Shown piece after piece: positions 44,273 through 52,028 of a stretch of DNA of 64,000 nt. The notes beneath the pieces were generated by a model that saw nothing but the letters and a program-made list of their open reading frames with translations, was not told the origin of the DNA and did no database searches. The position numbers were made by a program, and so were the translations under genes. The stretch is from Thermocrinis sp. (GTDB lineage Bacteria; Aquificota; Aquificia; Aquificales; Aquificaceae): assembly GCA_028276475.1 (NCBI GenBank), contig JAPYWH010000003.1:1-64000 (forward strand), written 5' to 3'. The stretch's first letter is position 1. Each line of letters opens with the position of its first letter.

Positions 44273-45595
44273 ATGGGACAATTAAAGAAGTGGATAGAAG
44301 ACTCTTTAAAAGGAGAGTATGAATACGAAGCATACATAGAGAGCACGGAAAAACTTTTGGTGGAAACCTCAAGAGAGAGCTTGGAAAACATTTCCAAGTC
44401 AAAGGAGGTTGGCTTGGGTATAAGGGTCCTAAAGGATTTTAAACAGGGATTTGCATACACTACAGACCTATCCTGGACGGCGGTCTCAAGCTGTGTAAAG
44501 AGGGCAGTGGAATCCTTGGAGCTTACGCCAGAGGATGACGGCTTTGTTCTTAACAAAGGCGAGTTTAAAGGGCAGTTGCAAGCGGATTACGATCACGAGG
44601 GACTTTCTCTGAGTGTGGAGGACAAAGCGGAGTTGCTTATAAACCTTGAAAGACTTGCAAAGGACTTTGACAGAAGGGTAGTGGGTACAAGAAAGACAAG
44701 CCTGAAGGAGTTTAAAGTGGAGGTTCATTGCTTTAACTCTCAGGGTCTTGAATACAGCTACACAACCACCTACTTTTCCTGCCTTACCTCAGCCCTTGCA
44801 GTAGAAAACGGGGAAGAGGCTATATCCTATGAATACAGGAGCGGTAGATATTTAAAGGACATAGACTTTGAAGAGATGGCTAAGGATGTAGTCTTTAAGG
44901 CTACTGCCCAGTTGGGGGCGGTCTCTTACGAAACAAAGGTCATTCCCGTTGTCTTCTTCAGAGACAGTGCGGTATCCCTTTTGGAGGCTTTCAGCCCGAT
45001 GTTCTTGGGGGATGCCCTCGTAAAAAACAAAACCCTGCTAAAGGGCAAAGAAGGACAAGCAATAGGAAGCCCTCTGCTAACAGTGATAGATGACGGGACC
45101 CTAAAAGGGGGTGTGGGTTCTCTGGACTTGGACGCGGAGGGCATTCCATCTAAGAAAAACATAGTAATTGAAAAGGGAATTTTTAGAGGGTTCTTGCACA
45201 GTGTATATACTGCAGTCAAATGCAATGCCAAACCAACGGGTAATTCGGTAAGATACGGCTATAAAAGCTTGCCCACCTCCGGCATAAGGAACCTTTACAT
45301 AGAGAGGGGAACCCACACTCTGGAAGACCTGTTGAGGGCTTACGAGGAGGTCTTTTTGATTTTAGACCTTATGGGTTTGCATACCGCAGACCCCATCTCC
45401 GGAGACTTTTCCCTGGGCGCTTCTGGTATAATTTATAAAAGTGGCAAGAAGGAGAGAGCAGTGAAGGGACTAGTCATAGGAGGGAACATTCAGGAACTTC
45501 TGAAAAATTTAGTGGGAATAGGAGAAGACCTTAGGATGTATGGGCATGTGGGTTCTACATCCTTGCTTATAGAAGCTATAACGGTTGGAGGATAA
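44273..45595 (+). CDS. TldD/PmbA family protease
   Basis: GLGIRVLKDFKQGFAYTTDLSWTAVSSCVKRAVE; C-terminal DPISGDFSLGASGIIYKSGKKERAVKGLVIGGNIQELLKNLVGIGEDL. Confidence 0.9.
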   Translation: MGQLKKWIEDSLKGEYEYEAYIESTEKLLVETSRESLENISKSKEVGLGIRVLKDFKQGFAYTTDLSWTAVSSCVKRAVESLELTPEDDGFVLNKGEFKGQLQADYDHEGLSLSVEDKAELLINLERLAKDFDRRVVGTRKTSLKEFKVEVHCFNSQGLEYSYTTTYFSCLTSALAVENGEEAISYEYRSGRYLKDIDFEEMAKDVVFKATAQLGAVSYETKVIPVVFFRDSAVSLLEAFSPMFLGDALVKNKTLLKGKEGQAIGSPLLTVIDDGTLKGGVGSLDLDAEGIPSKKNIVIEKGIFRGFLHSVYTAVKCNAKPTGNSVRYGYKSLPTSGIRNLYIERGTHTLEDLLRAYEEVFLILDLMGLHTADPISGDFSLGASGIIYKSGKKERAVKGLVIGGNIQELLKNLVGIGEDLRMYGHVGSTSLLIEAITVGG

Positions 45596-45597
45596 AG

Positions 45598-46215
45598 ATG
45601 AAAATATTTCTGTCTCTTACTTTCATGATATTGGGCTTCTTATTGTTTGGATTGGGAATCTACACATCCTTTGAAATATACGCCATAAAGAAGCAAGAAA
45701 AAATAAACGCAAATTTTGCCAGTTTTATGCTATCAGTGTATGAAGGTAAAGAGCTAAAGAATATAGACTATCCAGACCAAGGATTTTTTATATTTAAACC
45801 TGCCGAAGGAAAGATATACACATATGGTCAGGTATTTCAGAACCCTACGTATGTCAATATGTATTCGTCCTACCACAAAATATTGCCGTCTAAGGCAGAG
45901 GTATATATATACACCAGAAAATACAATTTTGGAGAATATATAGAAGAAATGCTCAAAAACCCAACATCCCTTGGTATATCCTTGGCTGGATTAATACTAT
46001 TTGCAATAGGCATTGTTTATATGCTAATCCCACAAGCCCAGCAGAAAAACACTGAAGTAAAAATAGTTGAAAAAACCTACCCACCGGATTTAGAAAGGAA
46101 GCTAAAGGCTGTTCGGCTGGCTATTGCTACCCACAGGATAATACCAAGGGAAAGTATTGAAGAGGCAAAAAGAATACTTGATAATATATTTAAAGAAATG
46201 GAGGTAAGAAAATGA
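45598..46215 (+). CDS. Hypothetical two-TM membrane protein with extracytoplasmic domain of about 95 aa
   Basis: TM near residues 3-27 and 120-141; no recognisable enzymatic motif; 4-nt overlap with next ORF. Confidence 0.7.
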   Translation: MKIFLSLTFMILGFLLFGLGIYTSFEIYAIKKQEKINANFASFMLSVYEGKELKNIDYPDQGFFIFKPAEGKIYTYGQVFQNPTYVNMYSSYHKILPSKAEVYIYTRKYNFGEYIEEMLKNPTSLGISLAGLILFAIGIVYMLIPQAQQKNTEVKIVEKTYPPDLERKLKAVRLAIATHRIIPRESIEEAKRILDNIFKEMEVRK

Positions 46216-47606
46216 AAGTATTGATGGTTTCCTTTGACAGAAGTTTAGTAGAACAGCTAAAGAATGCCCTCAGTGAATATGAAGTTATGGATGTTAAAAA
46301 TGGGGAGGAGGCCCTTAGTTTGGCAACTCCATATTTTGACGTGATAATTTATGACGCAATATCGGGAGCCCTCTCCGAAGAAGATATAAACAATCTATAT
46401 CTACAGAAATTCAAGGATGCGAAGTTTGTGGTGCTTGTGGATGACCTGTTCCCTATAAATGCTCAAAATCTAAAACCACAAAAAAAGATGCTTATACCAA
46501 GGGAGAGCACCCTTGATCAAATTCTATCTGCTGTTATGGCGCCTGTTCAAGAAACAGAGGAATACCAATTGCCCACCTTAGAGCTTGAAATAGAAACCCA
46601 CAAACAGACTGTGGGAGAAGTAGATGGGGTGATAGAGATAACTCCCTCGCAACAGGAAAGCATACAAAAGCTATTCTTTGAAGAAGAGCTTAAACTTGCA
46701 GAAGCACACCCAGAATCAAAGGAGGAGGTTTCCCAATACATCCCCGAAAGTGCTCATCCACAGAAGAAGGTTGCAGTAGTGTCCTTTGATAGCACCCTGG
46801 CAGATAGTATTACTCCCTTACTATCTGAAAATTTTGAGCCAGTTGTGGTAAGGTCCCTTAGAGACTTGGAAATTCCTTTAAAAGATGTAGATGGAGTTAT
46901 ATTTGATGCGATCTCAGGGCTTGCAGCAAAGAGGAGATTAATGGAATTAGCTAAAGACCATGATATAGCTCAAAAGCCCTTTTTAGTGTTGATAGACGAA
47001 CTGTTTAACATAAACATAGATGATGTTCCGCTCATAAATAAGCACGCAATTTCAAGGGAAGAGAGCCCCAAGAAAATAGTAGAAAAATTTAAAGAAATCT
47101 TCGTTCCTTTGAAGAAAGAAGAAACAACACTTATTCAAATGCTCGGAGAACTACTTGAGAAGCAAGAAGCTGTGCAGGAAAAAGAAAAGGGTGTTGAACC
47201 TGAGGAATTCCTTCAAATCATTAAAAAACTTGAAATGCCTAGGTTAGAGGAAAGCCCATTGCCTATGGAAGAGTTCGCCTTTAAGGAACAAAAGGAAGAA
47301 CCTACCCCAGTCCCACAAATACCTATAGAGGAGGCTATGCCCACGGTAAGCGCTTCGCAACAGAAGACAGAAAGATTGGAAGATGTATTGAAAGGCGTGT
47401 CCTTGGAGGATATTAAGAAGGTGATAGAGGAAACCATTAAAGAGGAAATCAAAAGAGCCTTTGAAGGTTTTAATCCGAGCGACCTTGTTAGGGAACTCCT
47501 CAGGGAGGAACTCAAAAAGGGTATTGAATCAATACCGTTGGAAGGCATAATCAAAGAGATAACCTACGAGGTTCTTCGGGAAAGGCTCAGAGAGCTTATC
47601 ACTTGA
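46212..47606 (+). CDS. Hypothetical protein with two tandem atypical receiver-like domains and a charged helical C-terminus
   Basis: Repeat 1 (aa 1-112) and repeat 2 (aa 185-296) share V-S-F-D, D-A-I-S-G, L-[VI]-D-[DE]-L-F-x-I-N and R-E-[SE] motifs. Confidence 0.7.
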   Translation: MKVLMVSFDRSLVEQLKNALSEYEVMDVKNGEEALSLATPYFDVIIYDAISGALSEEDINNLYLQKFKDAKFVVLVDDLFPINAQNLKPQKKMLIPRESTLDQILSAVMAPVQETEEYQLPTLELEIETHKQTVGEVDGVIEITPSQQESIQKLFFEEELKLAEAHPESKEEVSQYIPESAHPQKKVAVVSFDSTLADSITPLLSENFEPVVVRSLRDLEIPLKDVDGVIFDAISGLAAKRRLMELAKDHDIAQKPFLVLIDELFNINIDDVPLINKHAISREESPKKIVEKFKEIFVPLKKEETTLIQMLGELLEKQEAVQEKEKGVEPEEFLQIIKKLEMPRLEESPLPMEEFAFKEQKEEPTPVPQIPIEEAMPTVSASQQKTERLEDVLKGVSLEDIKKVIEETIKEEIKRAFEGFNPSDLVRELLREELKKGIESIPLEGIIKEITYEVLRERLRELIT

Positions 47607-51539: not shown

Positions 51540-52028
51540 TCAAAGGTTCTTCTGCCAAGCTTGAACCATCTCTGGGTCTATATCCACCAGAATGACCTTC
51601 TTTAGGCTCTTGGGTTTGAAGTTTTTTATTTCCTCAAGCATTGCCTTTGCGGAGAGTTCCTTGGGAAGTCCGCCCACACCCGTGCCCATTCCGGGCATCG
51701 CCAAGGTCTCAAAGCCCAAGCGGTCCGCCAACTCTAAGCTTGCCCTCACCGCCTTCCTCACCTTTTCCTCCGAGCTGTCCATGGCGGGCTTTTCCATGGT
51801 GGGCGCGTGGATCACTCCTTTGAATTTTAGCTTGCCTGGGGTGGTAAGCACTGCAGAGCCAACCGGAATGGGTGCCTTTTGCACCGCCTCCTTTTCTATC
51901 TCCTCTCCTCCAAACCGCTTTATCACACCCGCCACACCACCACCCATAAGTCCCAAGGAGTTGGCGGGATTAACGATCACATCCGCATCCACTTCAAGGA
52001 TGCTACCTTTGATTACTTCTATTTGCAT
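51540..52028 (-). CDS. Macro domain protein (ADP-ribose binding)
   Basis: DADVIVNPANSLGLMGGGVAGVIKRFGGEEIEKEA; AMPGMGTGVGGLPKELSAKAMLEEI. Confidence 0.92.
   Translation of the reverse strand: MQIEVIKGSILEVDADVIVNPANSLGLMGGGVAGVIKRFGGEEIEKEAVQKAPIPVGSAVLTTPGKLKFKGVIHAPTMEKPAMDSSEEKVRKAVRASLELADRLGFETLAMPGMGTGVGGLPKELSAKAMLEEIKNFKPKSLKKVILVDIDPEMVQAWQKNL

Follow-up and report, generated by a model that had tools for sequence, protein, structure and literature searches.

Loss of the acidic pair blocks phosphorylation of CheY, and the receiver of FrzS, which has no phosphorylation site, serves as a polar-localisation domain (PMC1974792). How pseudo-receivers switch on and off is an open question (PMC12632262). 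RomR, another receiver-based protein, is described as a receiver followed by an unstructured linker and a helical C-terminus; it co-occurs with MglA and MglB, and RomR sequences from 'Aquificales' were among those studied (PMC3441718).

Here we describe an operon from an Aquificaceae genome of 1.3 Mb that encodes a tandem pseudo-receiver protein (P0001) and a membrane protein (P0002). It lies in the window, that is, the whole stretch of 64,000 nucleotides that was analysed. An earlier interpretation, made from the DNA letters only (the sequence-only reading), had proposed that the two proteins form a transmembrane signalling or scaffolding pair, perhaps linked to adjacent flagellar export genes. 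The scaffold or signalling part of this proposal is plausible. Both open reading frames are present as it had described them and overlap by 4 nt (46212–46215). The operon is laid out as follows:

44273–45595, plus strand: gene for a PmbA/TldE-like protein, which opens the conserved operon
45598–46215, plus strand: P0002, a two-TM membrane protein of 205 aa (AlphaFold2 mean pLDDT 82.5), present throughout Aquificaceae beside P0001
46078–46212, plus strand: cytoplasmic helical hairpin of P0002 (aa 161–205), its best-conserved part by identity
46212–47606, plus strand: P0001, a tandem pseudo-receiver protein of 464 aa (open reading frame and family searches)
46212–46547, plus strand: module 1 of P0001 (aa 1–112), receiver-like, no helix 4 (pLDDT about 95; Foldseek; mean family identity 0.51)
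46548–46763, plus strand: acidic linker 1 (aa 113–184), predicted to be disordered (pLDDT below 50; 25% Asp+Glu)
46764–47102, plus strand: module 2 (aa 185–297), receiver-like (AlphaFold2, alignment, BLASTP)
47103–47372, plus strand: acidic, Pro-containing linker 2 (aa 298–387), mostly disordered (pLDDT below 50 for aa 322–388; dN/dS 0.49)
47373–47603, plus strand: C-terminal region (aa 388–464) with three predicted helices (398–417, 422–440, 443–463; pLDDT about 70–92)

Among the families compared, we take f1 to be Aquificaceae, f3 Hydrogenothermaceae and f5 Desulfurobacteriaceae; a further one is referred to as f2.

The two modules were compared by BLASTP (aa 1–112 versus aa 185–297), which confirmed their similarity at 33% identity and E=4e-10. 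Both carry the same VSFD / YDAISG / D-LFxI / R signature. After alignment of the modules with six canonical regulators of this genome and of related ones, VSFD fell on V-E/D-D-D, YDAISG on the phospho-Asp, LVDDLF on L-T-A and IPRE on T-K-P, exactly the placement that had been proposed. Profile alignment to CpxR and to the response regulator 3a0u also put YD on the phospho-Asp.

The acidic pair (Mg2+) is replaced by Ser-Phe in P0001 and by Ser-Phe, Thr-Phe or Ser-Tyr across homologues, and both of its residues are replaced in every homologue seen; therefore, no Mg2+ site is expected. In the modules of f1 and f2, the conserved Thr has become a hydrophobic residue and the Lys an Arg. The phospho-acceptor Asp is kept, with D48 (module 1) and D232 (module 2) invariant in 28 homologues. 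Thus, the non-canonical motif set noticed earlier holds for the acidic pair, Thr and Lys but not for the phospho-Asp itself.

An AlphaFold2 model of P0001, built on 46 homologues, contains two receiver-like domains (pLDDT about 95) that lack helix 4 and are each followed by a disordered acidic linker; the chain ends in three helices. Single receivers (PhoB and RR468) matched module 1 with Foldseek TM scores of 0.73–0.77, and the best Foldseek match was to PleD (E=2e-11), a protein with two domains of the receiver fold. The CheY-like fold, whose absence would have counted against the sequence-only reading, is thus predicted for both modules, albeit without helix 4. For P0001 alone, a search by sequence returned no relatives in the PDB. 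P0001 gave no match over the curated cut-off of Pfam PF00072, and 4 of 28 relatives matched with an E of 0.0025 at best. Judged by fold and profile alignment, and not by the Pfam cut-off, the modules are pseudo-receivers as defined in PMC12632262, i.e. recognisable as receivers but missing residues of phosphotransfer.

Purifying selection acts on P0001, strongly in modules 1 and 2 and weakly in the second linker (dN/dS against genome G003 of 0.12, 0.14 and 0.49, respectively). Across the 28 homologues, the signature residues of each module vary little or not at all: module 1 always has F8, D9, D48, A49, G52, D77, L79, F80, P81 and R97, and module 2 always has S191, D193, D232, G236 and D262. 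The signature recurs throughout Aquificaceae and in one sister family. Invariant residues, low dN/dS and the domain tree described below all agree with the earlier claim that the two copies share a selected family signature and not a chance one. The last C-terminal helix, IIKEITYEVLRERLRELIT, is conserved too, with a mean identity of 0.47 over the last 20 aa. Of the long charged helical tail that had been suggested, a conserved three-helix C-terminus (388–464) stands, while the preceding 298–387 turned out to be a poorly conserved acidic linker. PADLOC gave only weak matches, to the coiled tail, and a defence system was rejected.

The P0001 family is real, conserved and nameless in the databases searched, and in Aquificaceae it consists of tandem pseudo-receivers with a membrane partner. 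By far most f1 genomes encode it, usually at full length, and so do all seven of the listed f2 genomes. Profile searches also revealed divergent f3 relatives, in which only one module precedes a long acidic linker and a conserved tail of helices. A reverse search with the f3 profile recovered module 1 of the window at 8.9e-16 and module 2 at 3.9e-7, and hhalign joined f1/f2 with f3 at 1.8e-13. Members from f3 lack the acidic pair but keep the Lys and sometimes the Thr ('LTAPENP'), which argues that the module descends from receivers. Ordinary phospho-receiver residues in homologues would have spoken against the sequence-only reading; in Aquificaceae, neither this nor its other refuting conditions came true.

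In the domain tree, the first modules of f1 and f2 lie near each other, their second modules are grouped (support 91/80) and f3 forms a separate group. The simplest reading of this tree, which has few columns and long branches, would be one duplication before the split of f1 and f2. At L114, L119 and L122, in three genomes of genus g13, the one-module relative adjoins, divergently, a parA-parB-like pair.

Outside Aquificota, homologues were sought with exact peptide patterns in 84,980 species. The 48 loci found are nearly all titled Aquificota; two (L069 and L108) are titled as an 'Acidobacteria' and a 'Gammaproteobacteria' MAG, and we take them for mislabelled or mis-binned Aquificota contigs. 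The same patterns missed f3, so divergent relatives may exist elsewhere.

The operon is conserved in Aquificaceae. In all 37 loci that have P0002, its gene is directly upstream of P0001, with the 4-nt overlap in about half of them. A pmbA/tldE homologue on the same strand is directly upstream of the P0002 gene, or overlaps it by <100 nt, in 36 loci; the one remaining locus is at the end of a contig. Genes downstream of P0001 vary between loci. In f2 and f3, searches for P0002 homologues gave no convincing match. The pairing of the receiver-like protein with a two-TM protein, as had been suggested, thus holds only in Aquificaceae. A further P0001 copy, with neither P0002 nor tldE upstream, is present in one Aquificaceae MAG (L078:6001-7182).

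AlphaFold2 predicts for P0002 a long TM1 helix (aa 2–49), an extracytoplasmic beta segment (about aa 50–120), TM2 (aa 122–143) and a cytoplasmic hairpin (aa 163–203). This bears out the description of a two-TM protein with an extracytoplasmic segment and no kinase domain, and adds the helical hairpin to it. Mean pairwise identity is 0.47 in the hairpin versus 0.26–0.28 in the TM and extracytoplasmic parts. As the hairpin is the most conserved part of P0002, we infer that it contacts P0001. Above a Foldseek probability of 0.8, the extracytoplasmic domain matched only the KinD sensor domain (0.98), with a weak E=0.045 over 59 columns. We judged the weak, scattered Pfam matches of P0002 and of the P0001 tail, among them DUF445, AAA_lid_3 and Tetraspanin, to be due to chance.

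We also studied the co-occurrence of P0001 with MglA and Roadblock proteins in 50 relatives that are at least 90% complete. MglA and Roadblock matches were present in 45 of them, and each of these has the P0001 family, although G025 shows only a fragment of it where a contig ends. Two genomes of different genera (G053 and G055) lack the P0001 family, MglA-like and Roadblock proteins altogether. The remaining three, from Hydrogenobaculum (g10), have P0001 and P0002 and no MglA or Roadblock match. The co-loss of P0001 and MglA gives a one-sided Fisher p of about 0.008, calculated by hand from the tallies and ignoring relatedness.

Hydrogenobaculum keeps the pair without MglA; therefore, dependence on MglA is not strict. 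In its module 2 the motif is gone (SKD, DTTEG), and this module sits on the longest branch of the family. Such degeneration would be expected if a partner had been lost, although it is one case only. PilT occurs in 61 of 61 genomes, so the co-occurrence with pili is uninformative.

The P0001 gene does not adjoin mglA. In Aquificota, the MglA-like module forms one apparent operon (L126:179-2484, L127:766-3090) that encodes a membrane protein, a Roadblock protein, a 230-aa protein that we take to be DUF4388-like, and the GTPase. In G016, a second Roadblock gene and another gene for an MglA-like GTPase are located divergently beside flhA (contig C1, 870848-873869).

With a probability of about 0.4, we propose that P0001 is a non-phosphorylated scaffold of the RomR/FrzS type that positions or controls the MglA/Roadblock GTPase module and probably serves cell polarity and type IV pili. 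On this view, the family was inherited vertically in Aquificales from a receiver that lost its phosphotransfer chemistry, and the module was duplicated in the lineage of Aquificaceae and f2. The modules might then bind other proteins, with the linkers giving flexible spacing and the C-terminal helices serving for oligomerisation or docking. In Aquificaceae, P0001 may be tethered to the inner membrane via the cytoplasmic hairpin of its operon partner P0002, and the extracytoplasmic domain of P0002 may determine the state of P0001 or where it is located. Against this scaffold stands the constant neighbour pmbA/tldE, which it leaves unexplained.

That neighbour is what speaks for another reading, in which P0002 and P0001 bring substrates to the upstream-encoded TldD/TldE peptidase or regulate them. 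Here pmbA/tldE opens the operon in every locus that does not stop at a contig end; however, relatives in f2 and f3 do not adjoin tldE, and a common operon alone is weak evidence, so we hold such a protease-linked role to be improbable. Less unlikely, although still doubtful, is a membrane-linked signalling adaptor unrelated to MglA, with P0002 as the sensor of an extracytoplasmic cue and with pseudo-receivers that recognise a partner or a ligand, for example c-di-GMP. The KinD match, the presence of GGDEF proteins in 6 of 6 genomes tested, the ligand-binding pseudo-receivers already described (PMC12632262) and the retention of the pair in Hydrogenobaculum are all consistent with it, but the extracytoplasmic domain of P0002 is less conserved (0.26) than the hairpin (0.47), and an adaptor of this kind would leave unexplained why G053 and G055 lack both gene sets. 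The three predicted C-terminal helices after acidic linkers, as well as the parA-parB-like neighbours in g13, could also point to a pole or membrane organiser that oligomerises through its C-terminus and acidic linkers and uses the receivers as client-binding sites. We assume a resemblance to PopZ in this respect. The P0001 tail has no Pfam match to any such family and the parAB adjacency is confined to one genus, which makes an organiser of this type rather improbable.

Two further readings are weaker. A working pair of phospho-receivers, fed by an orphan kinase and using D9 and D77 as unusual metal ligands instead of the acidic pair, could be imagined from the invariance of D48, D9 and D77 in module 1. 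It is very unlikely, given that the acidic pair is replaced in all homologues seen, that Thr is gone and Lys changed to Arg in f1/f2, and that no kinase gene adjoins. Least credible of all is a component of flagellar export or assembly. The operon of the window does sit between the fliL-flhB genes and flhA-flhF-flhG, but all four Hydrogenobacter (g7) genomes among the relatives, including the one-contig G033, lack FlhA and keep the P0001/P0002 pair, flhA is hundreds of kb away from the pair in G016 and G023, and the one-module relatives have other neighbours. A flagellar role is unsupported because Hydrogenobacter retains both genes in the absence of flhA; the link suggested by the sequence-only reading is largely refuted, and the position amid flagellar genes appears to be local to the lineage of the window. 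Just upstream of flhA, a macro-domain-like protein, judged as such by eye, is encoded at 51540-52028 of the window on the minus strand.

For the MglA/Roadblock scaffold, RomR is the best lead. The RomR-C peptide used as a query was a consensus of our own that we assume to be representative. It agrees with residues E390, K391, W394 and E402 reported for RomR (PMC12719032). Matches were found in 20 genomes, all of f5, while profile searches did not find the P0001 family in f5 and placed it only in f1–f3; RomR-C and P0001 are therefore complementary within Aquificota. Most f5 RomR receivers keep the phospho-Asp and the Lys. In some f5 RomR-C proteins (L171, L173), the phospho-Asp is missing, as is one acidic residue. 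Canonical f5 RomR-C genes (L167:5209-6695 and equivalents in L168-L176) follow a gene for a one-TM coiled-coil protein, usually with a 4-nt overlap, and this protein is a possible membrane partner of f5 RomR.

In permutations keeping the hydrophobic pattern, p was 0.006 for the tails of f1 against f5 and 0.40 for those of f3 against f5; the likeness between the tails of the P0001 family and RomR-C is weak and only suggestive. The Trp and Pro of RomR-C (Trp-Glu-Val-Val-Pro) are absent from P0001; therefore, we do not file it as RomR. A canonical RomR in the window genome was rejected: there was no RomR-C match, and the three of its four PF00072 receiver genes that we read are ordinary regulators.

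A more far-reaching version of the scaffold reading, which we regard as unlikely, is that a phosphorylation-dead P0001 replaced RomR in the MglA/Roadblock module of Aquificales, was doubled in Aquificaceae and f2, and came under a dedicated membrane sensor or anchor in Aquificaceae. It would amount to a polarity switch that needs neither phosphate nor a histidine kinase. One fixed set of replacements, a conserved duplication, a dedicated membrane partner and the compact genomes of thermophiles offer a possible mechanism that can be tested with two small proteins. If the link to MglA is true, it would show how one lineage swapped the receiver-based recruiter of its polarity GTPase.

Several known systems resemble P0001 in part. 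The domain PF20299 (NARF) shows weak profile similarity, with 13 of 28 members at E<=0.1 and one relative at 26 bits against a cut-off of 25; however, most members are under the cut-off (P0001 itself at 17.3 versus 25 bits), no nucleotidyltransferase is encoded at the P0001 locus, and our search of the literature on NARF returned nothing useful. PleD, with its receiver and pseudo-receiver, shares the tandem receiver-fold modules, but P0001 has no GGDEF domain and neither of its modules has the acidic pair. FrzS of Myxococcus xanthus uses a non-phosphorylatable receiver fold to localise and to bind proteins within a type IV pilus and polarity pathway (PMC1974792, PMC12632262). It differs in its extensive coiled-coil domain and in the loss of the phospho-Asp position, which P0001 keeps; P0001, for its part, has tandem modules, linkers predicted to be disordered, and C-terminal helices that are short.

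With RomR of Myxococcus, Bdellovibrio and f5 Aquificota, P0001 shares an N-terminal receiver-type domain, a long disordered acidic linker and a conserved helical C-terminus, and f5 romR, too, comes directly after a gene for a membrane protein, which it overlaps by 4 nt in most cases. In contrast to RomR, P0001 of f1/f2 has two modules, a derived and duplicated REC, and the acidic pair is lost throughout. P0002 is unrelated in sequence to the membrane neighbour of f5 romR, and P0001 is retained in one genus that lacks MglA.
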